Origin: Bacteroidota bacterium
GTDB lineage: Bacteria > Bacteroidota > Bacteroidia > Palsa-965
Direction of reading: 5' to 3'
DNA length: 41,396 nucleotides
Assembly: GCA_013298545.1 (NCBI GenBank)
Contig: JAAFIA010000041.1
Coordinates: forward strand, 1-41,396
Shown here: positions 23,285 through 34,763 of the stretch, one piece after another
Position numbering within the stretch: the first letter of the stretch is position 1
How the letters are laid out: every line of letters starts with the position of its first letter
Made by a program: the position numbers and the translations under genes
Notes under the pieces: model-generated
What the model was told of the DNA's origin: nothing
The model's input: only the letters and a program-made list of their open reading frames with translations
Databases searched by the model: none

Positions 23285-24541
23285 ATGAAATCAATCGCCC
23301 TTTTTTGTTTGTCGCTTTTGACAACTGCCATAACTGCGCAAAACTGGATTCCGCTCAATTCAGGTGTTACGCAAAAATTAAACGATGTATTTTTCACCTC
23401 GCGCGATACAGGCTATGTGGTGGGAAACGACAGTGTTTTGCTGCGTACCACCAATGGCGGAAATACCTGGACACGGCTGAATGATGTAGCCAATTATAAC
23501 CCTGGAAACCTCAACGGAATTTGGATGTTTGGCGATGGAACGGGGTATATTGCTCCGCTTTATCAAAGTGGTATTCCGCAAACAGCAAATTCGGGTATTA
23601 GCTGGACAAGCAACAACAATTCCATAAACCCTTGTTTTCCGGACGGATTATTTTTTGCTTCGCCAACCAATGGTTTTCTTTTTGGACAAGGGTGTTTTGG
23701 TGGTGCATACATTTCGCATTGGGATGGTAACACTTGGAGCGGTGGCGAATTGCTCGATTACACGTTTATCAATAATACCTACATTCAAATACGTGGTGTG
23801 GCGTACAATCCGGCAACCAATACAGCCGTTGCGGTTGGCGATCGCGGAAAAATTTTTCGTTCGACCGATAATTTTCAGACCTGGGACACCATTGTGGTTA
23901 ATGGTACAGATGATTTTACGGCGGTAGATTATGCGGGAAACAATCGTTTTTACATTTCGAGTAAAGCGCAATTTGCAAGTGCGTATGTATCGACAGATGA
24001 TGGACAGTCATTTAGCATTGATCAAACATTCGCGTTTACATTTTTCTATCCTGAGTTTTATGATATTGATATGCTCGACAATGGTTTTGGCGTAATAGGT
24101 GGTTATGCACAAACAGGTGGAACTGGATTTTTACAAATTCGAAATGCGACGGGGTGGGGATCTCAATACGATGGGGTTCCGCAAATTATTCATGCGGTAT
24201 ATGCAGTTGATTCGACGTTGGCGTTTGCGGTGGGTGATAGTGGCGCAATTTACCGCTACGATCATCCGGTAGGAATTGAGGATGTGTATGCTTCAACGCA
24301 GGAATTAAATTTATTTCCGACGGTGGTACAAAGCAATGAAACGGTTACACTTAATTTACCTTTAGGCGAAATTTTTCAAGTAGAGGTTATAGATGCGCGG
24401 GGACGCGTGTGCATGCGCTATGGCAATTGCGCGGGGGCGTATAAACTGGATGTAGAAAAATTTTCACCGCGCGCGGGTGTGTATGTTGTAAAAGCTATGA
24501 GTGAACGTACGCAGGCTTGTGGGAAGTTGGTGGTGCGATAA
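23285..24541 (+). CDS. Secreted YCF48-like beta-propeller protein with type A T9SS sorting domain
   Basis: A 418 aa protein with a signal peptide (MKSIALFCLSLLTTAITAQ). Repeated propeller blades show as LNDVFFTSRDTGYVVGNDSV followed by LRTTNGGNTWTRL, GIWMFGDGTGYIAP, AVAVGDRGKIFRSTDNF and AYVSTDDGQSF, the pattern of YCF48/BNR-type photosynthesis-assembly-like domains. The last 85 residues, from NLFPTVVQSNE, match a type A T9SS sorting domain with the usual V-x-x-x-x-A-R-G-R and a KLVVR end, although the FPNP motif has become FPTV. It is expected to pass the outer membrane. Ligand unknown. It has its own promoter and a bidirectional terminator. Confidence 0.87.
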   Translation: MKSIALFCLSLLTTAITAQNWIPLNSGVTQKLNDVFFTSRDTGYVVGNDSVLLRTTNGGNTWTRLNDVANYNPGNLNGIWMFGDGTGYIAPLYQSGIPQTANSGISWTSNNNSINPCFPDGLFFASPTNGFLFGQGCFGGAYISHWDGNTWSGGELLDYTFINNTYIQIRGVAYNPATNTAVAVGDRGKIFRSTDNFQTWDTIVVNGTDDFTAVDYAGNNRFYISSKAQFASAYVSTDDGQSFSIDQTFAFTFFYPEFYDIDMLDNGFGVIGGYAQTGGTGFLQIRNATGWGSQYDGVPQIIHAVYAVDSTLAFAVGDSGAIYRYDHPVGIEDVYASTQELNLFPTVVQSNETVTLNLPLGEIFQVEVIDARGRVCMRYGNCAGAYKLDVEKFSPRAGVYVVKAMSERTQACGKLVVR

Positions 24542-24546
24542 TCGTT

Positions 24547-24586
24547 AAAAAAAAACGGCTCAGGTGTTTGCTTGAGCCGTTTTTTT
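24547..24586. terminator. Bidirectional terminator closing the YCF48 gene and the TonB-domain array
   Basis: Hairpin CGGCTCA / TGAGCCG with additional G-C pairing toward the loop, flanked by A- and T-runs. It lies 22 bases beyond the stop of the last TonB-domain gene. Confidence 0.92.
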
Positions 24587-24608
24587 ATGATAGTAGTTAT
24601 TCCAATTC

Positions 24609-25076
24609 CTAACGTCGTTTACTCTTTTTCCCTTTATCCAAAACAAATTTTACTGGAATGGTCATCTGCAAACGTACAGGCTTGCCGTTTCTGGTTGCCG
24701 GAGTCCATTTCGGCATCGCTTTGATTACACGCACCGCTTCTCGTCCTAAACCGGGGGCACCGGGAACACCTTTTGCAACTTCTACATTCGATACGCTACC
24801 ATCTTTTTCAATAATGAAAGAAACGTAAACAGTACCTTGCTTGCCCTGCTCTTTTTCGAATTGAGGGTAGTTGGTATTTAAGCTCAAGTATTCGTTTATC
24901 GGATCTGCAACACCTCTTGGATTTGGAAATTCCGGCATTACCTCTACGGCGTTTGGATCATTGGCATCTTGATCTGTTGTATCTGTTTTGGCGTGCAACA
25001 CCTTTGCAGAATCTTGCTGTGCATACATTGCAACGTTTGCCACTAAAAATAAAAGGAGAAGGGTTATTTTTTTCAT
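24609..25076 (-). CDS. Short secreted TonB C-terminal domain protein (array member 7)
   Basis: A 155 aa protein: signal peptide (MKKITLLLLFLVANVAMYAQ), a polar Asp/Ala-rich linker, then the TonB C-terminal fold from PEFPNPRGVAD. Core motifs are VYVSFIIEKDGSVSNVEV, EAVRVIKAMPKWTPA and GKPVRLQMTIPVKFVL. It lacks the uncleaved membrane helix and the Pro-rich spacer of energy-transducing TonB, so it would be soluble in the periplasm. A basic tail DKGKKSKRR ends it. It is the last gene of the seven-gene operon, 13 bases after member 6. Function is not established. Confidence 0.85.
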   Translation of the reverse strand: MKKITLLLLFLVANVAMYAQQDSAKVLHAKTDTTDQDANDPNAVEVMPEFPNPRGVADPINEYLSLNTNYPQFEKEQGKQGTVYVSFIIEKDGSVSNVEVAKGVPGAPGLGREAVRVIKAMPKWTPATRNGKPVRLQMTIPVKFVLDKGKKSKRR

Positions 25077-25089
25077 GTTGGGTTAGAGA

Positions 25090-25518
25090 TTAATGTAAAA
25101 CAAATTTAATTGGAATTGTCATCGATAACCTAACAGGTTTTCCTTTCAATGTTGCGGGACTCCATTTAGGCATAAGTTTAACAACGCGTAATGCTTCGCG
25201 AGCAAATCCTGGCCCATTGGAAACTTCTTTTTCAATTTTAACAGTTGAAACCGTACCATCTTTTTCGACAATAAAACTGATATAAACTGTTCCTTCGATC
25301 CCTTGCTCTTTTTCAAATTGCGGATAGTTGATATTGTCTTTTAAAAATAGTGTTAGACTATCTTGCCCTCCCTGAAAGTAGGGCATTTTCTCGCCATACA
25401 AATTTTCTTCATTTAAGTTCTTCTGCTTATTCATCATCTCTTTCAAAAGCTGAGGCATGTCTGAAGGATGACAAGAAGCAAGAAGCAGTATGAGAAAAAG
25501 TGTAAGGTTTTTTTTCAT
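25090..25518 (-). CDS. Short TonB C-terminal domain lipoprotein (array member 6)
   Basis: A 142 aa protein with a lipoprotein signal (LFLILLLASC; Cys at residue 16), so it is probably tethered to a membrane by lipid. A short linker leads to FQGGQDSLTLFLKDNINYPQ and the TonB C-terminal core: VYISFIVEKDGTVSTVKI, then EALRVVKLMPKWSPA and KPVRLSMTIPIKFVLH. Among the four short array members it is the only one with a lipobox; the others have ordinary signal peptides. No membrane-spanning anchor is present. It lies 12 bases after member 5. Confidence 0.85.
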   Translation of the reverse strand: MKKNLTLFLILLLASCHPSDMPQLLKEMMNKQKNLNEENLYGEKMPYFQGGQDSLTLFLKDNINYPQFEKEQGIEGTVYISFIVEKDGTVSTVKIEKEVSNGPGFAREALRVVKLMPKWSPATLKGKPVRLSMTIPIKFVLH

Positions 25519-25530
25519 CTTTTTTCACTT

Positions 25531-25950
25531 TTATTTGGATTCAATTCGAATAGGCAGAGTCATACTCAAGCGTATAGGCTTGCCATTCATTTCAGCAGGC
25601 TTCCAGTTGGGTGGCATGGTTGAAATAACACGTACAATTTCGGCATTTAGCATGGGAGCATTGAGAATACCTTTCACAATTTTCACATGGCTAACTGAGC
25701 CATCGAGTTCTACAATAAACGAAACATAAACTGTTCCGAATTTTGCCTCAGATGAAGTATCTTGAGGTAAGCGTAGGTTTTTATAAATATAGGTTAAAAC
25801 ACCTCCTGGATATTCTGGTGCTTTCTCTGCAAATTGAATAACCTTGTCATCTTCTGTTTGTAACGTTTCAAGTCTTGCAGCATCTTGCTGACCAATTGCG
25901 TGTATGGATAGCCATACAAAAAGCAGAATGAGGCTTACTCTTTTCACCAT
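25531..25950 (-). CDS. Short secreted TonB C-terminal domain protein (array member 5)
   Basis: A 139 aa protein from ATG 25950 (MVKRVSLILLFVWLSIHAIG), which begins a signal peptide; the longer open frame would overlap the preceding gene. A linker with 'ARLETLQTEDDKVIQFAEKA' (cut before the core) leads to PEYPGGVLTYIYKNLRLPQ and VYVSFIVELDGSVSHVKIVK, then IVRVISTMPPNWKPA and KPIRLSMTLPIRIESK. The insertion of an extra Pro in MPPNWKP deviates from the usual MPKWKP. It is soluble and secreted to the periplasm by its signal. Member of the seven-gene array. Confidence 0.82.
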   Translation of the reverse strand: MVKRVSLILLFVWLSIHAIGQQDAARLETLQTEDDKVIQFAEKAPEYPGGVLTYIYKNLRLPQDTSSEAKFGTVYVSFIVELDGSVSHVKIVKGILNAPMLNAEIVRVISTMPPNWKPAEMNGKPIRLSMTLPIRIESK

Positions 25951-25958
25951 TCCATTTT

Positions 25959-27767
25959 TTAATTCAACTGAAAACGAATCGGAATGGTCAGCACAGTACG
26001 CACCGTGCGTCCATTCATTTGACCCGGATTCCAATTCGGCATGCCCGAAATTAGCCTGATGGCCTCTTTGGTTAGGCCTGGTGCCCCTGGTACTTCTTTT
26101 ACCACCTGAATATCGGTTATACTTCCATTCTTCTCCACCGTGAAACGTAGATAAACCGTTCCTTGCTTATACATCTCTTGTTCTTGTTGCGGATAGTGCA
26201 TGTTTTTTTTCATGTATTCGCGCATGGCCTCCTCTCCACCAACAAAAGACGGCGATACTTCAACAAATGTAAATACTTCATCTTCTTTTCTCTCAACAGG
26301 TGGTGGCGGTGGTTCTGAATCTACTATTTCATAATCAACCGATACCGCTTCTGCATCTGCGATAAACCATTCTGGATTGTATTCAAAACGCCCCTTCGTT
26401 TCTTCGCGCACAATAGCATTGCATGCTGGTGTATTGGATTCCATATCTATCCCTTTTGCATCAAAAACGCTCGGAAGTGTGTGTACTTTTTTACCAGAAA
26501 CCATACAAGTCATTTTTACTTTTCCGTTAGGATAATAGGCCGTAAATACAGCAGGCTGATAGGAATAGTCGCCATACTTCGTAACCGATCTTTTTTTACC
26601 ATTGAGGTAATATCCATTCCAGTCGCCACTATAACCGTAACTCGAAATTGTTCCGGTGAGAATTACTTTTCCTTGTTCGGAATACTCGGTGTACGATTGA
26701 TCCCAATAAGGCAAACGCTTAGGGTCTTGCTTAGCACTAGGGAGTAAGAATTGTCGTGAAAAGATTTTCCCATTGGCATAAAACGTAATAATCGAATCGG
26801 GCACATACTCGAAATGATGTTTATTCTTCACGAAGGTTTGCTTTTCGCTGTTTATTCTGCCTGTGTACATCGTAGCCATGGCCTTCACCGAATCGTTGTA
26901 GTAGTATATTTTCTCCATGGGCATCATGGCATTCGCATAAAAATGATGTTGACCAATGGGTTGTTCTTGCCTGAAAGCTCCTTCACTCGATAATTTCCCA
27001 TCGAAATAATAACGAGCTACACCATCTTTGCGATCGTTCTTGTAATAAATTTCAGAACGCATCACACCTTCATCTGTCCATTCGCGTCGGGGTCCGTCGT
27101 ATTTGTCTTCTGCATAGTAAATCTCTTCTACCAAAATGCCTTTGCGGTAGCGGCGTGTGTAGCCGTGTCGTTTATCGTTTTGATATTGCGTAACCAAACG
27201 CGGAAATGTATCCGACATCGTTCGGCCATATTCAATCCAAGTTCCTGTTTTCTTTTTATCCTGATAATACTCGGTAGCACTAATTTTTCCGTTTGAACTA
27301 TATTTTACACGTTCAGCAACTTGTCCATTTTGAATCAATTCGTAGCGTGCGATTCGTCCTGAAGTGTATGTGTACTGCGGCCCTTCTTGCTCTCCATTTT
27401 TGTATTGATAACACGCAGCAAGAGCATTCGGCTCCATAAAACGAAGAAATTTTCCTTCTAATTTGCCGTGCATAAAAGCACAACTAATCAACGTATCGCC
27501 CGATTCTAAATAACTGATGTATGCGCCATCGAGCGTATCGTTTACATACTGTTCAATGGCTTTAATTTTACCACTTGCATACCAAACCATCCATTCACCT
27601 TCACGCTTCGATTTTTTGTACATCCCCGAAGAGGCTTTGTTTTTGGTGCCTTTGTAGTAATTGGTAACACGACCATTTTTGCGCATTTTGTTTTCCGACT
27701 CTTGCGCGAAAAGCATATTCGCACCAAACAGACCAACAAAACAAAAAAGGAATAAACGATTTTTCAT
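25959..27767 (-). CDS. MORN/YwqK-like repeat protein fused to TonB C-terminal domain (array member 4)
   Basis: A 602 aa protein with a signal peptide (MKNRLFLFCFVGLFGANMLFAQ). About residues 30-430 are MORN/YwqK-type repeats with patterns such as SKREGEWMVWYASGKIKAIE, NDTLDGAYISYLESGD and DWNGYYLNGKKRSVTKYGDY. A non-repeat island SDTFPRLVTQYQND occurs in the middle. A Pro-rich linker (PPPPP near 490) joins this to a TonB C-terminal domain beginning at FVEVSPSFVGGEEAMREYMK, with VYLRFTVEKNGSITDI and NGRTVRTVLTIPIRFQLN at the end. No membrane anchor is seen. MORN repeats may bind protein or glycan; function is unknown. Confidence 0.85.
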   Translation of the reverse strand: MKNRLFLFCFVGLFGANMLFAQESENKMRKNGRVTNYYKGTKNKASSGMYKKSKREGEWMVWYASGKIKAIEQYVNDTLDGAYISYLESGDTLISCAFMHGKLEGKFLRFMEPNALAACYQYKNGEQEGPQYTYTSGRIARYELIQNGQVAERVKYSSNGKISATEYYQDKKKTGTWIEYGRTMSDTFPRLVTQYQNDKRHGYTRRYRKGILVEEIYYAEDKYDGPRREWTDEGVMRSEIYYKNDRKDGVARYYFDGKLSSEGAFRQEQPIGQHHFYANAMMPMEKIYYYNDSVKAMATMYTGRINSEKQTFVKNKHHFEYVPDSIITFYANGKIFSRQFLLPSAKQDPKRLPYWDQSYTEYSEQGKVILTGTISSYGYSGDWNGYYLNGKKRSVTKYGDYSYQPAVFTAYYPNGKVKMTCMVSGKKVHTLPSVFDAKGIDMESNTPACNAIVREETKGRFEYNPEWFIADAEAVSVDYEIVDSEPPPPPVERKEDEVFTFVEVSPSFVGGEEAMREYMKKNMHYPQQEQEMYKQGTVYLRFTVEKNGSITDIQVVKEVPGAPGLTKEAIRLISGMPNWNPGQMNGRTVRTVLTIPIRFQLN

Positions 27768-27776
27768 ACAACCTAT

Positions 27777-29585
27777 TTATTTAATGATAAATTTAACTGG
27801 AATCGTCATTTCTGTACGAACGGGTTTTCCACCCATGGCACCCGGTGTCCATTTCGGCATCGACGAAATAACTCGAATGGCTTCATTGTTCATTACTGGC
27901 GATTCGGAAAATGATTTTGCAAGGGTAACATTGCTTACAGTACCATCTTTCTCCACAACAAACTTAACAAATACGACACCCGATTTTGCGTTTCCTAAAG
28001 CTTTATAATTGATGTTTTGTTGGATGTAATTTTCCCACCCATCCTTAAAGGTAGGCATCACTTCTACATAAGTTAAAATTGGGTCTTCAGTAACCATCAC
28101 CTCAGGAGCAACAGTATCGTTCATTTCGATGTATGGGCCTTTGGGATCTTCCGATTTAGTTGCTTGAACATTTTCTTCCATCGCTTTAAATTCGTACCGA
28201 TTGTAGCTCCACTTACCAGCTAGTGCTTGACCAATGATGTCGTTGTAAAGCGGCGTATCAAAGGCCACAACTTCGCCCGATTCGGTCCAGACAAATGGTT
28301 TTGACGCAACCTCTCCTTTCAAAATATCGCATTGCATTTGTTTTTTCCCACTCGCGTACCAACTTTCAAATTTTCCTTTTCCATCATCACTAGCATAACG
28401 CATAACTGATTTCTTTTTTCCGTTGCTGTAATAGGAAAACCAATCGCCTGATTTTAGCTCGTTTGTGTATGTACCTTTTTCAATCAATTTGCCTTGCTCA
28501 TCAAATTCTTGATAGGTATATATTTTCTTTCCCTTGGCTTTTTGTGCTTCCGTTTCTTTTCGATCGATTTCTTTTGTCGAACTGATTGCGCCCGTCTTGT
28601 AGTAGGTTACAATTCTATCGGCTGGATAGCGAGAGGCTAAACATTCCTCATTTTGGTCATTGAGGTAATAAACTTCGGTATTCTTCTGATACGAAAAAAT
28701 TGCAGGAGGCGTATTGGGATAGGTACGAACTTCTTTTAATTTCCCTTTCCGATCGTAAAAAATACGGCGTTCTTTTATTGGAAAGCCCAATTGGTAATAC
28801 CCTTCAAGCACCATTACCCCAGATTCAAAACGCCTCATAACGCTATCGCGTTTACCATCTTTGTAATACTCTTCACCCATGAGCGTTCCATCCATATAAA
28901 ATGATTTATGAGAACAAATTTTATCATGAACAAAAACAGATTCGCTGGTGCATTTTCCTTGCACATACGTGCGCATAAGACCATGAAGAGAATCATTTTT
29001 ATATTGTTTGATTACCTGCGGAAAAGTGTCTAGTGTTAGTGCATAATCGGAATAATAAATACATGCACCATCTTTTTTCCCTTGCTTGTAATACTCAATT
29101 GCTTTGGGCCGTCCATCGTCGTAAAAATCTTTTTTCAAAACCATGAAACCAGCTTCATAAAATTTATACATCAACAAATTTCCATTCGGATTCCACAAAC
29201 GCCAGTGCCCGTCGTGTCTTCCGTCTTTATAATTCGATTCTAAAATTGGCCTACCATTCATATCAAAACTGGTCCAAATGCCCTCCTCTTTGCCATGCAA
29301 GTAAGTTGCTTTGGTATGTATTTGTCCCGTTGAGTAGTATTCTGTGTACGCACCTTCTAGCGTATCGTGGTGGTAATTGAACACATACCATAAAAAACCT
29401 TCCTTGCTCCAAGCCCTCCATTCTCCTTCTCGTTGGCCGTTTTTGTACATGCCTGATCTCGCTTTTTGTGTTGTGCCAATGTAATTGTCGGTTACAAAAC
29501 CATTTTCAACAACATTCTTTTCGACTTGTGCTATGCTATGCAGACTGAAACTGCATAGCAAGAAAAATAGGGTTAGGAAACGCAT
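27777..29585 (-). CDS. MORN/YwqK-like repeat protein fused to TonB C-terminal domain (array member 3)
   Basis: A 602 aa protein, the same length as its neighbour. The signal peptide is MRFLTLFFLLCSFSLHSIAQ. Repeats include GQREGEWRAWSKEGFLWYVF, HDTLEGAYTEYYSTGQIHT, GKEEGIWTSFDMNGRPILES and DGRHDGHWRLWNPNGNLLMY. The island LDTFPQVIKQYKNDSLHGL parallels the SDTFP islands of members 1 and 4. The TonB C-terminal domain starts near VEVMPTFKDGWENYIQQN and has VVFVKFVVEKDGTVSNVTLA, then EAIRVISSMPKWTPGAMGG and MTIPVKFIIK. It stops 9 bases before member 4 starts. Soluble periplasmic location inferred. Confidence 0.85.
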   Translation of the reverse strand: MRFLTLFFLLCSFSLHSIAQVEKNVVENGFVTDNYIGTTQKARSGMYKNGQREGEWRAWSKEGFLWYVFNYHHDTLEGAYTEYYSTGQIHTKATYLHGKEEGIWTSFDMNGRPILESNYKDGRHDGHWRLWNPNGNLLMYKFYEAGFMVLKKDFYDDGRPKAIEYYKQGKKDGACIYYSDYALTLDTFPQVIKQYKNDSLHGLMRTYVQGKCTSESVFVHDKICSHKSFYMDGTLMGEEYYKDGKRDSVMRRFESGVMVLEGYYQLGFPIKERRIFYDRKGKLKEVRTYPNTPPAIFSYQKNTEVYYLNDQNEECLASRYPADRIVTYYKTGAISSTKEIDRKETEAQKAKGKKIYTYQEFDEQGKLIEKGTYTNELKSGDWFSYYSNGKKKSVMRYASDDGKGKFESWYASGKKQMQCDILKGEVASKPFVWTESGEVVAFDTPLYNDIIGQALAGKWSYNRYEFKAMEENVQATKSEDPKGPYIEMNDTVAPEVMVTEDPILTYVEVMPTFKDGWENYIQQNINYKALGNAKSGVVFVKFVVEKDGTVSNVTLAKSFSESPVMNNEAIRVISSMPKWTPGAMGGKPVRTEMTIPVKFIIK

Positions 29586-29620
29586 ACTTTTTTTGTTTAG
29601 GGTTAGTTTTAATTATTCGT

Positions 29621-30016
29621 TTATCGTTTAAAATGTATTGGGATGGTGTAATTCATACTTATCGCTTTGCCATTCGCACTGGCAGGAATCCATTTGGGCA
29701 TGCACTGAATTACGCGCACAACTTCTGTAGAAAAAGCGGGATGTTGTGCATCTCCTTGCTGGATATTTACACCGGAAATTGTACCATCTTGCTCAACGAC
29801 GAAAGAAACATACACCACAGTTTCGATGCTATCTTGTTTCGCTGCTTCGGGATAATGGATATTGGCTTTCAAAAAATCCTGCAATGAATCGTTCCCCCTA
29901 GGAAATTCAGACAAAGTGGCTCTACTAGGAAATCCACAAAGGGCTATCGAATCGGCTTGTGCATACACCGAGCAGTAACCTATCAACAAGAAAAATAGCA
30001 CAATGCTTTTTCTCAT
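29621..30016 (-). CDS. Short secreted TonB C-terminal domain protein (array member 2)
   Basis: A 131 aa protein from ATG 30016 (MRKSIVLFFLLIGYCSVYAQ), a signal peptide; earlier in-frame codons overlap the previous gene. The core is PRGNDSLQDFLKANIHYPEA, VVYVSFVVEQDGTISGVNIQ, VVRVIQCMPKWIPASANGKA and MNYTIPIHFKR. It lacks any anchor or Pro-rich linker. The usual E-A-L/I-R before V is here TEVVRVIQ, showing divergence from the other array members. It lies 10 bases after member 1 and 35 bases before member 3, so it is embedded between the two large genes. Confidence 0.82.
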   Translation of the reverse strand: MRKSIVLFFLLIGYCSVYAQADSIALCGFPSRATLSEFPRGNDSLQDFLKANIHYPEAAKQDSIETVVYVSFVVEQDGTISGVNIQQGDAQHPAFSTEVVRVIQCMPKWIPASANGKAISMNYTIPIHFKR

Positions 30017-30026
30017 ATCAAAAAAA

Positions 30027-31796
30027 TTATTGCAACACAAAATTGATCGGTAGTGTCATCTGCACATTAACTGGCTTTCCATTGTTTTTCCCAGGAGTCC
30101 AGGTGGGCATAGTTGATACCACACGAATGGCTTCTTTTTCGAGTCCTGGGCCACCAGATACGCCTTTCATCACATTGATGTCGTTGACTGTACCATCTTT
30201 ACGCACCACAAAACGCACATACACACGTCCCTGAATACCAGCTTCTTTTTCTTCCATTGGGTAGCGAATATTTTTGGCAATGAAATCCATCATCGCTCCA
30301 CTTCCACCGGGAAACTCGGGCATGTTTTCTACCACTTGGTAAACCACATCTTCAGATACGGGTTGTAATGCTTCTATAAATGCAGGACCATCATCACCAG
30401 CCTGTGTTTCGTTTGATTCTACGACCATTTCTTCATCCCATATCGCTTCCTGTATGGGAATAATTTCTTCATTTCTTCCCTTCTTATCAAACCGATTGGG
30501 GTCGTAGTACAAATCGCCGGGTAGGCTGCTTTCTACAATTTCTTCGTATTCGCGCGTTTTGGGTTTTAAGACACGTCCTTTTTCGTCCCATACTTTTGGT
30601 GCGGCGGCAGCATAGTTATTTTCGCACGGAAACTCAATCATTTTTTTGCCATTGCTGTACCATTTTTCATACTTGCCTTGAATGACGCCAACCGCGTAAA
30701 CCGTGATTGATTTTTTTGCACCATTTAAATAATACGTTTTCCATTCACCATCCATCGCACCATCTTTATACAATCCTTGCTGCAACAAAATTCCTTCCTC
30801 GCTATATTCTTGATACTGCTCTTTACGAGTAGCCACAATTCCGCTACCGCCAGCACTAGGAACAACCATCCGGCGCGATGCCAATTTTCCGTTCTTGTGA
30901 TACGTTAATGTAGAATCAATCCGCCCAAATTTGTAAAATACTTCGCGTTCAGGATTTCCATTGCGTGCAAAATCGGTGTGTTTGCCTTCTGGTGTTCCTT
31001 TGTTATACTTGCCTTCAAACGTGCGCATACCCGAATTGTAAAACGTACACAAGCCATCTTTCAATCCAGCAGTATAATACATGTCAATGGTTTTCATGCC
31101 GCTATAATCCCATTGTTGAAAATGTCCATTCATACGACCATCCGTATATTCTGCTTCTTCGACCAAGACCCCAGCGCGATAGCGGCGCAGAGGACCGTCG
31201 AGTTTTCCGTCTTTCCAAGTTTCTACTTTCTCTGGAAAGGTATCGCTTACTTGTTGCGGATCGGGATAGGTGCGCCAGACACCATTCGGTTTGTTGTTTT
31301 TATAACTCACGATGCGTTTGGGGCGACCATTGAAATAATTGGTACGCTCATACGTCATGACTGCTGTTTCATACATCGATTGCCGAAATACATTTCCATT
31401 TTCGTACCAAAATGTTTGTTCGCCATGAAACGCATTGGCCAAATAATTCAATTCTGCCTCTTTCTTATTTCCTTGAAAGTACAAGTTTGTTTTGCCTTCG
31501 CGTTGACCGAATTGATAATTCGCCACCGAACGTAAATCACCATTCTCGTAATAGGCAGTGCATGGGCCATGCAGCAGGCCTTTGCTATATGTTTCAATTT
31601 TATCAACGCTTCCGTTTTCGCGCCAGTAAGTCCATACGCCTTCGCGTTTGTATTTTTTATATTTCCCCGAATAGGCTTTTTGTTTTGAGCCGTCGTAATA
31701 AACAGTACCACGTCCACGTTTTTTTGCAGCAGGGTCATTTTGGGCAAAAAGCGACGTAGCGAAACAAACAATTAAAATTGCAAGCGAATAACGCAT
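30027..31796 (-). CDS. MORN/YwqK-like repeat protein fused to TonB C-terminal domain (array member 1)
   Basis: A 589 aa protein from ATG 31796 (MRYSLAILIVCFATSLFAQ), which begins a signal peptide. About 13 MORN/YwqK repeats follow: YKKYKREGVWTYWRENGSVD, GLLHGPCTAYYENGDLRSV, QREGKTNLYFQGNKKEAEL, AFHGEQTFWYENGNVFRQS and others, with the SDTFPEKVETWKDGK island. The TonB C-terminal domain starts at VVENMPEFPGGSGAMMDFI, with VYVRFVVRKDGTVNDINVMK, EAIRVVSTMPTWTPGKNNG and MTLPINFVLQ at the end. It is the first gene of the operon; the promoter is about 26 bases upstream. Confidence 0.86.
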   Translation of the reverse strand: MRYSLAILIVCFATSLFAQNDPAAKKRGRGTVYYDGSKQKAYSGKYKKYKREGVWTYWRENGSVDKIETYSKGLLHGPCTAYYENGDLRSVANYQFGQREGKTNLYFQGNKKEAELNYLANAFHGEQTFWYENGNVFRQSMYETAVMTYERTNYFNGRPKRIVSYKNNKPNGVWRTYPDPQQVSDTFPEKVETWKDGKLDGPLRRYRAGVLVEEAEYTDGRMNGHFQQWDYSGMKTIDMYYTAGLKDGLCTFYNSGMRTFEGKYNKGTPEGKHTDFARNGNPEREVFYKFGRIDSTLTYHKNGKLASRRMVVPSAGGSGIVATRKEQYQEYSEEGILLQQGLYKDGAMDGEWKTYYLNGAKKSITVYAVGVIQGKYEKWYSNGKKMIEFPCENNYAAAAPKVWDEKGRVLKPKTREYEEIVESSLPGDLYYDPNRFDKKGRNEEIIPIQEAIWDEEMVVESNETQAGDDGPAFIEALQPVSEDVVYQVVENMPEFPGGSGAMMDFIAKNIRYPMEEKEAGIQGRVYVRFVVRKDGTVNDINVMKGVSGGPGLEKEAIRVVSTMPTWTPGKNNGKPVNVQMTLPINFVLQ

Positions 31797-31821: not shown

Positions 31822-31852
31822 CAAAGATACATCAAGCCTGACAAAAGGCTTG
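31822..31852 (-). promoter_or_regulatory. Promoter of the TonB-domain array with an inverted repeat upstream of the -7 box
   Basis: On the minus strand TATCTTTG (plus 31822-31829) is an exact -7 match. The palindrome CAAGCC (31833-31838) / GGCTTG (31847-31852) sits immediately upstream, in the normal -7/-33 spacer, where a repressor could bind. No clear -33 TTG is at the right distance. Confidence 0.5.
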
Positions 31853-31953: not shown

Positions 31954-32976
31954 ATGAATGATAATTTAAACCATCAATCAGATATTATTTTCTATAGCAG
32001 TCCAGATGGCCATATAAGAATAGAAGTTGTTTTTAATAACGAAACATTTTGGCTTACTCAAAAAGTAATGGCCGAGTTATTTGGCGTTAAAATACCAGCC
32101 ATAAGTAAACATTTATCCAATATTTTTAGTGCTAATGAGTTGATAGAACATTCAGTTATTTCCATTTTGGAAACAACTGCCGCGGATGGAAAAAGCTACA
32201 AAACAACATACTATAGTTTAGATGCCATTATTGCTGTCGGCTATCGCGTTAACTCCATCCAAGCTACACAATTTCGTATTTGGGCTACCAAAACGCTTCG
32301 GGAGTTTATTATAAAAGGGTTTGTGCTAGATGATGAGCGTCTTAAACAGGGTACGCATTTTGGAAAAGATTATTTTGATGAGTTATTAGAACGCATCAGA
32401 GAGATACGCGCTAGCGAAAGGCGATTTTATCTTAAAATAACTGACATCTATGAGCAATGTAGTATTGATTATCATAAAGAGGCTGAGACTACACGCCATT
32501 TTTTCAAAACGGTACAAAACAAATTGCATTGGGCTATTACAGGAAAAACAGCAGCCGAACTCATTGCTGAAAGAGCAGACCCAAGTAAACCCAATATGGG
32601 TTTAACGTCATGGAAAAACGCGCCAAAAGGTAAAATCCTAAAAGGAGATATCGGGACGGCCAAAAATTACATGCAGGAAAAAGAGATCAAAACATTGGAA
32701 CGAATTGTTACAATGTATTTGGATTACGCCGAACTTCAAGCAGAAAAAAAAATACCCATGAAAATGAAAGATTGGGTAAACCGATTGGATGCCTTCTTAC
32801 AATTCAATGAATATGAAATACTAAAGAATGGAGGAAGAATTAGTCACGAAATAGCTCTAAAAATAGCAGAAGATGCTTATGATAAATTCAGAATCATTCA
32901 AGATCAAAATTTTGTAAGTGATTTTGAAGAAGAAATTAAAAAAATAAGTAAATCTATTAAGCCTAAAAAGAAGTAA
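31954..32976 (+). CDS. RhuM-family virulence-associated protein
   Basis: A 340 aa protein matching RhuM: NETFWLTQKVMAELFGVKIP at residues 29-48, HLSNIFSANELIEHSVISI, and the conserved YYSLDAIIAVGYRVNS followed by FRIWATKTLREFIIKGFVLD. The C-terminal half has FGKDYFDELLERIREIRAS and AITGKTAAELIAERADP. The family is common in mobile and pathogenicity elements, with an N-terminal helix-turn-helix-like DNA-binding region and an uncertain second domain, sometimes tied to Fic/Doc-like toxins. It is unrelated in role to its neighbours, has a lysine-rich tail (KSIKPKKK), and lies between imperfect repeats, which suggests recent acquisition. Confidence 0.85.
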   Translation: MNDNLNHQSDIIFYSSPDGHIRIEVVFNNETFWLTQKVMAELFGVKIPAISKHLSNIFSANELIEHSVISILETTAADGKSYKTTYYSLDAIIAVGYRVNSIQATQFRIWATKTLREFIIKGFVLDDERLKQGTHFGKDYFDELLERIREIRASERRFYLKITDIYEQCSIDYHKEAETTRHFFKTVQNKLHWAITGKTAAELIAERADPSKPNMGLTSWKNAPKGKILKGDIGTAKNYMQEKEIKTLERIVTMYLDYAELQAEKKIPMKMKDWVNRLDAFLQFNEYEILKNGGRISHEIALKIAEDAYDKFRIIQDQNFVSDFEEEIKKISKSIKPKKK

Positions 32977-33032: not shown

Positions 33033-34763
33033 ATGAAACAAATTCTACTATTCTTTTTCACCATACTGCAACCCATTTTTCTGCTTGCACAGCAAAGCTA
33101 TCCACAAAATTATTTCCGCTCACCTGTAGGTATTCCGATTGAACTGGCCGGAAATTTTGGCGAATTGCGTCCCAATCATTTTCATGCGGGTATCGACATT
33201 ACAACCCACGGAAAAGAAGGTTTATCCATTTATGCGGCTGCTGATGGCTATGTATCGCGCATCAAAGTTGGTCCATTTGGTTATGGTCGCGTTTTATACA
33301 TCACACATCCCAATGGCTTTGTAACGGTTTATGGACATTGTTCTTCCTTTGCTGGAAAAATTGCAACGTATGTCAAAACACAACAATATACGAGCGAAAA
33401 TTTTGAAGGCGAATGGTTTCCAAAACCAGAAGAACTTCCGGTAACACAAAGTCAAGTGATTGCGCTTTCGGGCAATACAGGCGGCTCGTCTGGGCCACAC
33501 CTTCATTTTGAAATCCGTGATGCGAAAACAGAAGAAGCATTAAATCCCTTGTTGTTTGGCATGCCTGTCAAAGACAATGTAAAACCTACTGTTGTAGCGC
33601 TTGCCGTTTATCCGTTGCGCAATAGTCAAGTGAATGGTAAAACAGATATTGTTCGTATTCCATTAAAATTAGAAAACGGTGTTTATGTTTTTGCCAATCC
33701 GAAAGATTCGTTGCGGGTGAGCGGGCGCGTGGGATTTGCCATTGATGCGTTCGACAAAGAAAATTTACCGACTGGAAAAAATGGGGTGTATGCCATTTCA
33801 CTTTCGCACAACAACAAAACCATTTATCACCATCACCTCGAACGCATTCCGTTTGATAAAATGCGTTACATCAATTGTGTCATCGATTACAAAGCCAAAG
33901 AAACGACCAACAAATACTGGATGCGTAGTTGGAAATTTCCCAACAATGAATTACCCATATACGATACCATGGCTGGCGATGGTACGGTGATGTTTGTCGG
34001 CGATTCGATGCACCAGTTTCGTTACCGTGTGGCCGATGCCTATGGCAATGTTTCGGTAGTCAAATTCAAAGTGCATGGTGTTGTTTCTAAACCCATTTCG
34101 ATCACGAGTGTTTACAAACCCTTTATTCAAATCATGCGTTGGGATACGACCAATGTATTTGAAGAAGTCAATTTATATCGTTTCGAGATGCCTTCCAAAT
34201 CGGTTTATGACAATGGCGAATTTTCTACCGCTTCTGAAAAAGGCAGCAAGACTATGTTTTCGCCGATATTGCGGATTGGCGATCGCTACGAGCCGATGCA
34301 CAAAGCTTCTGTTTTATGGATCAAGGCCAATGTTCCTCCCGAATGGCAATCCAAAGCATTGATCGTTGAAGTCAATCCCAAAGGTGGTTATTCGTCTGTG
34401 GGTGGCAAGTGGGAAGATGGTGGCGTAAAAACAGAGATCAAAGAATTTGGAAAGTATGCGGTGATGATTGATACCGTTGCGCCCATTTCGCGCCCAGCCA
34501 ATTTCGATTTAAAAGGAAAAGTACAAACCAATTTTACCGCATTGAAATCGGTCCAGTTTACGGTTGGCGATAATCTTTCTGGCTTGGCTTCGTATCGTTG
34601 TACCATTGATGGAAAATGGGTTTTGTTGGAATACGAACCAAAAAAACGCTTGCTTTGGTACACGTTTGACGAGCGCGTGGCGAAAGGAAAACATGCGTTG
34701 CTGCTTGAATTGACGGATAAATGCGGCAATACAACAAGTTATACCAAAGATTTTGTGCGGTAA
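33033..34763 (+). CDS. M23-family metallopeptidase, secreted (LytM-like)
   Basis: A 576 aa protein with a signal peptide ending LLAQQ. The LytM/M23 core lies in the first 170 residues: zinc ligands His51 and Asp55 in HFHAGIDITTHG, the GYVSRIKVGPFGYGRVLYI beta core, VYGHCSSF (102), and HLHFE with His156 and His158. All catalytic residues are intact, so it likely cleaves glycyl or cross-link bonds of peptidoglycan. The remaining 400 residues are beta-rich, with a late LSGLASYRCTIDGKWVLLE; they resemble an Ig-like C-terminal region and have no T9SS domain I can see. The next gene begins 16 bases after its stop. Confidence 0.88.
   Translation: MKQILLFFFTILQPIFLLAQQSYPQNYFRSPVGIPIELAGNFGELRPNHFHAGIDITTHGKEGLSIYAAADGYVSRIKVGPFGYGRVLYITHPNGFVTVYGHCSSFAGKIATYVKTQQYTSENFEGEWFPKPEELPVTQSQVIALSGNTGGSSGPHLHFEIRDAKTEEALNPLLFGMPVKDNVKPTVVALAVYPLRNSQVNGKTDIVRIPLKLENGVYVFANPKDSLRVSGRVGFAIDAFDKENLPTGKNGVYAISLSHNNKTIYHHHLERIPFDKMRYINCVIDYKAKETTNKYWMRSWKFPNNELPIYDTMAGDGTVMFVGDSMHQFRYRVADAYGNVSVVKFKVHGVVSKPISITSVYKPFIQIMRWDTTNVFEEVNLYRFEMPSKSVYDNGEFSTASEKGSKTMFSPILRIGDRYEPMHKASVLWIKANVPPEWQSKALIVEVNPKGGYSSVGGKWEDGGVKTEIKEFGKYAVMIDTVAPISRPANFDLKGKVQTNFTALKSVQFTVGDNLSGLASYRCTIDGKWVLLEYEPKKRLLWYTFDERVAKGKHALLLELTDKCGNTTSYTKDFVR

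Follow-up and report, generated by a model that had tools for sequence, protein, structure and literature searches.

The Bacteroidota rely strongly on TonB-dependent transporters, and it is an open problem how a few TonB proteins are shared among so many of them. Secreted TonB C-terminal domains are already known, since a published operon of the FCB group (Fibrobacteres, Chlorobi and Bacteroidetes) encodes one that is fused to an outer-membrane barrel and lacks a motor anchor of its own. Here, an array of seven consecutive TonB_C genes is described in a 41,396-nucleotide (nt) stretch of DNA from a Bacteroidota bacterium (contig JAAFIA010000041.1, assembly GCA_013298545.1; hereafter the window). 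The array arose by tandem expansion, specific to its lineage, of a gene for a secreted MORN-TonB_C fusion (MT gene) that is kept head-to-head with an M23 peptidase gene, and its products are tentatively proposed to be un-energised periplasmic binders of TonB's partners.

The array differs from each of the closest described systems. Its products share the C-terminal fold and motif of the TonB of ExbB/ExbD/TonB complexes (PF03544/TIGR01352), with VIA Z scores of 8-11.5 for g6 to solved TonB C-terminal domains (CTDs), but they are without the membrane helix, the characteristic N-terminus, the proline-rich linker and a nearby ExbB/ExbD (ExbBD) gene. The MORN members resemble secreted MORN_2 proteins, including the NCBIfam LIC20035 adhesin, in having a signal peptide and then a long series of MORN_2 repeats, but they carry a fused C-terminal TonB_C, and matches of the array to the adhesin family (NF033566) are weak, at 42-50 bits against a 250-bit cut-off. 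The FCB case is a single fusion in another operon, with no array and no MORN. A search of the open-licence literature on MORN and TonB turned up no description of MORN-TonB fusions or of arrays like this one.

Seven anchorless TonB tails

An earlier note on this DNA, made from the sequence alone, had described seven tandem genes ending in a TonB C-terminal fold. All seven open reading frames (ORFs) are open and intact on the minus strand, span 31796 to 24609 in the order that the note gave, and are separated from g1 to g7 by gaps of 10, 35, 9, 8, 12 and 13 nt. They are listed below with Pfam scores, lengths in amino acids (aa) and, where available, AlphaFold2 (AF2) models.

30027-31796, minus strand: g1, first gene of the array; signal peptide, MORN_2 repeats and TonB_C, 589 aa (TonB_C 74.2 bits, MORN_2 72.6 bits; AF2 model)
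29621-30016, minus strand: g2, short secreted TonB_C protein, 131 aa (TonB_C 52.4 bits; single N-terminal hydrophobic stretch)
27777-29585, minus strand: g3, signal peptide, MORN_2 and TonB_C, 602 aa (TonB_C 47.9 bits, MORN_2 57.2 bits)
25959-27767, minus strand: g4, signal peptide, MORN_2 and TonB_C, 602 aa (TonB_C 60.3 bits, MORN_2 47.2 bits)
25531-25950, minus strand: g5, short secreted TonB_C protein with the most divergent CTD, 139 aa (TonB_C 34.0 bits)
25090-25518, minus strand: g6, short TonB_C protein with lipobox LLASC, likely a lipoprotein, 142 aa (TonB_C 64.0 bits; AF2 model)
24609-25076, minus strand: g7, short secreted TonB_C protein, 155 aa, its CTD 70-74% identical to that of the genome's own TonB (TonB_C 68.7 bits)

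The start of g5 was set at the ATG at 25950; the longest-ORF start at 26034, which overlaps g4, was not used. Every member exceeds the gathering cut-off of Pfam TonB_C (PF03544, 24.6 bits), with scores of 34.0-74.2 bits, and six of the seven also pass that of TIGR01352. The MORN_2 cut-off (PF07661, 29.6 bits) is exceeded in g1, g3 and g4 only, giving three MT proteins and four short secreted TonB_C proteins, the composition originally described. The core TonB motif is retained throughout the array in 14 invariant columns. The window's genome (G000; 4.53 Mb, 97% complete) contains 11 TonB_C matches, seven of them inside this 7.2-kb array. The best repeat between array copies is only about 70% identical in DNA, indicating old paralogues and not assembly duplicates; with related arrays present in other genomes as well, assembly duplication was ruled out. 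Neither of the weaknesses that the note had foreseen, namely that only one or two members would prove to be TonB_C or that the array would be an assembly error absent from all relatives, has materialised.

By hydropathy, none of the seven proteins has the uncleaved N-terminal membrane helix of a functional TonB. Each has a single N-terminal signal-like stretch (maximum 19-residue mean 1.3-1.8) and no second helix, whereas the genuine TonB of this genome has a strong internal helix that peaks at 2.8 at residue 36, and bears the N-terminal motif VFEQRNKAYGAY. The motor-facing motif of relatives' TonBs, VFExRNxxYGA, is missing from all seven, and no ExbB or ExbD was found among the neighbouring genes scanned around the array. 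Inspection of the signal peptides by eye identified the lipobox in g6, while the other six end in ...AQ or ...GQ; the prediction is that all seven products reach the periplasm, with g6 lipid-anchored and the other six free. The earlier description of these proteins as secreted, soluble or lipid-tethered, and devoid of both the helix and the ExbB/ExbD-contacting region agrees with these results, export and tethering being predictions.

The fold of the tail was assessed on g6 only. Its AF2 model has a CTD pLDDT of about 95 and superimposes on FoxA-bound TonB (6i97_D) with a VIA Z of 11.5 and a root-mean-square deviation of 1.8 A over 89 residues, and on BtuB-bound TonB (2gsk_B) with a VIA Z of 9.6. 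In the full-length g1 model the MORN part forms a long row of confident repeated beta-hairpins, matching MORN1 structures; the TonB_C part is poor because the alignment had three rows, and the fold was judged from the g6 model instead. As modelled, the CTD is compatible with TonB-box binding by strand addition.

Origin beside an M23 peptidase gene

The array has a divergent partner that the earlier note had not linked to it:

33033-34763, plus strand: M23 (LytM-type) peptidase gene, divergent partner of the array (Pfam Peptidase_M23 69.3 bits; synteny)

An MT gene stands head-to-head with this peptidase gene in six of the seven genomes of the window's genus and its sister genus (G000, G001, G003, G004, G006 and G007). 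At the M23 locus, G006 has one MT copy, G004 has one behind a lipoprotein gene, G001 has the start of one MT gene where the contig is split, and G003 has an MT gene and a short TonB_C gene; G007, from the sister genus, has four MT-type genes and a MORN-only gene at the orthologous position. In G002 the M23 gene is kept with no MT gene beside it, and class-wide the M23 gene usually adjoins a ZapA-RNase Y operon with nothing between. In a tree of the MORN parts, which has many long branches and moderate support only, the three copies of the window group together (72/93) and the five of G007 fall apart from them (89/84). From these separate groups, the two arrays are likely to have expanded independently of each other at one shared locus. 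The neighbourhood comparison that the note had proposed thus finds MT genes at the M23 locus in relatives, and the array is not an isolated oddity.

Conservation of the pair raises a cell-wall role, in which the MT proteins would be periplasmic peptidoglycan or hydrolase binders that position or regulate the divergent M23 endopeptidase, with the TonB fold reused as a binding module. The divergent pair is kept in the six genomes even where the flank behind it (the RNase Y/ZapA or PorP/SprF side) has been replaced, and one array member is a predicted lipoprotein. SjdR of Anabaena, a TonB-like protein reported to affect septal peptidoglycan and to have no part in transport (PMC8262864), provides a possible parallel, but its authors describe it as lacking a TonB-like periplasmic domain. 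Moreover, the arrangement in G002 and the usual one across the class indicate that M23 does not need MT, MT paralogues occur at other loci without M23 (L052, L054, L056 and L060), and peptidoglycan binding leaves the likeness of the CTDs to the genome's own TonB unexplained. A cell-wall role, the strongest competitor of the reading favoured below, is considered rather unlikely, and owes the weight that it is given to the conserved M23 neighbour. Reuse of the fold for peptidoglycan or protein binding had also been suggested in the note; it gains support from the head-to-head gene and is still putative.

The genome's own TonB and a possible function

A complete ExbB-ExbDx3-TonB operon is encoded elsewhere in the genome, so the array is not this cell's only TonB:

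L070 5988-8770: Ton operon of G000, in which ExbB and TonB flank a run of three ExbD genes

The CTD of this ExbBD-linked TonB is 70-74% identical to that of g7 and 65% identical to that of g6, but only 54-62% identical to that of the same TonB in congeners, and the g6 and g7 CTDs group with it in a 73-row tree (99/85). Within the genus, four of five genomes encode for themselves the anchorless CTD nearest to their ExbBD-type TonB, against a mean of 1.0 after shuffling (p 0.001, post hoc), where linkage to ExbBD was read directly for the window's genome only and assigned in congeners by N-terminal likeness; the affinity group includes two TonB rows judged cut off or out of frame. An approximately unbiased test rejects a single clade for the ExbBD-type TonB CTDs (p 0.003). 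The second TonB type in the genus shows no same-genome excess (p 0.26). Between tonB and g7, DNA identity is 66% and synonymous codon matches are near background, which argues that the likeness is not the result of recent copying. On sequence grounds, the same-genome affinity would fit selection imposed by common binding partners, ancient exchange of sequence, or both.

Recent gene conversion with tonB is unsupported by these figures. Conversion more generally, by which anchorless CTDs would swap sequence with tonB and the array would be a reservoir of receptor-binding tails, could account for the differing histories of the two parts of these proteins: the MORN parts of the array stay together (72/93) with their CTDs mixed among those of TonB, and L060 of G004 groups with L054 of G003 by its MORN part (92/77) and with the G004 TonB by its CTD (93/89). 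The low tonB-g7 identity and background-level codon matches again stand against it, no long identical tract is present, and the short alignments leave many branches open, making this explanation very unlikely.

The reading favoured here, at somewhat less than even confidence, is that the array proteins are un-energised periplasmic binders of TonB's partners. In the growth of the array, MORN copies were duplicated, and MORN-less copies arose in it or joined it. Without ExbB/ExbD energy, the products would bind the partners of the real TonB tail, above all the TonB-box segments found in TonB-dependent transporters (the genome has 25 Plug matches), with the MORN sheets adding a second binding surface. 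On the inner side of the outer membrane, they would serve as buffers, decoys or adaptors. What they bind, where they reside, how they affect transport and what the MORN part does are all inferred, and the support is circumstantial: TonB_C in all seven members, no anchor, a g6 fold like that of FoxA- and BtuB-bound TonB, and the closeness of g6 and g7 to the local TonB tail. The role as competitors or adaptors of TonB-dependent transporters that the note had put forward is compatible with this evidence and is likewise putative.

Several observations weigh against the proposal. The YP motif is missing from g3, conservation in g5 is poor, the retained M23 neighbour suggests a cell-wall function instead, and no TonB-dependent transporter or ExbBD gene was recognised beside the window array or related arrays in the stretches read. 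Support for placing g7 with TonB is only 92/77 in a smaller tree of 35 rows. The same-genome affinity was spotted before it was tested, on about 100 alignment columns and five genomes, and was not replicated in two other genera, after which a class-wide affinity was rejected. A broader version, in which Bacteroidota arrays of soluble or lipid-anchored TonB tails track their own TonB, occasionally exchange sequence with it, tune TonB-dependent transport as competitors or adaptors that receive no energy, and are connected to the wall or outer membrane by their MORN sheets, is decidedly unlikely.

Tails that bind transporters would add a new level of control, and binding to the wall or to the M23 enzyme would mean that the TonB fold has been reused for wall biology. 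Both readings are directly testable with small soluble proteins. In addition, annotation of TonB by its tail alone may count non-transducers as energy transducers, in this genome at least seven of the 11.

Related arrays, flanking genes and other architectures

Anchorless TonB_C proteins are common in relatives, where they occur singly, in doubled form, or joined to kinase, M56/BlaR1-like or other N-termini. Independent arrays in other families comprise a run of five genes for secreted TonB_C proteins that together hold eight TonB_C domains (L152 7024-10189), three genes with four domains (L153) and three genes (L083), and there are smaller sets at L154 and L155. Like the window array, these five loci consist of tandem genes for short secreted TonB_C proteins, some of which contain the domain twice, but they have two to five genes instead of seven and are without MORN fusions or an M23 neighbour. 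Array size varies by lineage and the underlying kind is widespread; seven genes is the largest array by gene count among the matches listed in 66 genomes. The earlier suggestion that a seven-member array might mark an undescribed system keeps that distinction of size, but is weakened by the five-gene MORN array of the sister genus and by the arrays across the class. A scan of named genomes with the MT alignment returned one distant, MORN-only locus, in Cecembia lonarensis (L021).

This breadth would suit TonB_C as a generic secreted protein-interaction domain, with the array a lineage-specific expansion of paralogues whose diverse or redundant partners are unrelated to TonB-dependent transport. 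Relatives fuse the domain to a Ser/Thr kinase (L061) and to M56/BlaR1-like and other secreted N-termini, or repeat it in tandem, and the arrays elsewhere have no common neighbours. A generic domain does not, however, predict same-genome affinity to the ExbBD-linked TonB, and the 14 invariant columns of the core motif count against it too; this explanation is regarded as unlikely.

Three further features flank the array:

24545-24590, no single strand: bidirectional intrinsic terminator, common to the array and the convergent gene 23285-24541 (fold -17.8 kcal/mol, z -6.07)
31822-31829, minus strand: candidate Bacteroidota -7 promoter element TATCTTTG, 26 nt upstream of g1 (by eye, weak)
31954-32976, plus strand: RhuM-family gene between the array and the M23 gene (Pfam Virulence_RhuM 373.9 bits)

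The uniform strand, the tiny gaps and the strong downstream terminator (z about -6.1) make it likely that the array is one operon with a single transcript, as the note had concluded from gaps of 8-35 bases. The promoter element is rated weak because no match to the strict two-box Bacteroidota promoter pattern was found upstream of g1. The RhuM-family gene was not found in the array-M23 intergenic regions read in relatives, and is therefore likely to be an insertion into the divergent intergenic region. It also matches the PADLOC candidate PDC-S05. No match in PADLOC-DB was found for any of the seven array proteins at E 0.01, and the array was rejected as a defence system on that basis.

Other TonB_C and MORN architectures were also encountered. 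A secreted protein with two TonB_C domains is kept in all five genomes of another genus (L165 973-1770, L166 934-1776 and 1811-2638, L174 976-1773, L172 1459-2250 and L176 1459-2253), with tandem copies in one. The Ser/Thr protein kinase with a C-terminal TonB_C fusion lies at L061 9763-11556, in a congener. In two genera, proteins of 434-478 aa (L202, L203, L206, L186 and L187) have a zinc-finger anti-sigma-like start, judged by eye, and a TonB_C end; in the one scanned, Pfam names TonB_C only. Finally, G000 itself encodes several secreted MORN_2-only proteins on contigs C1, C67, C90, C133 and C78 (L072-L076), among them one of about 1117 aa (L076 6135-9488).

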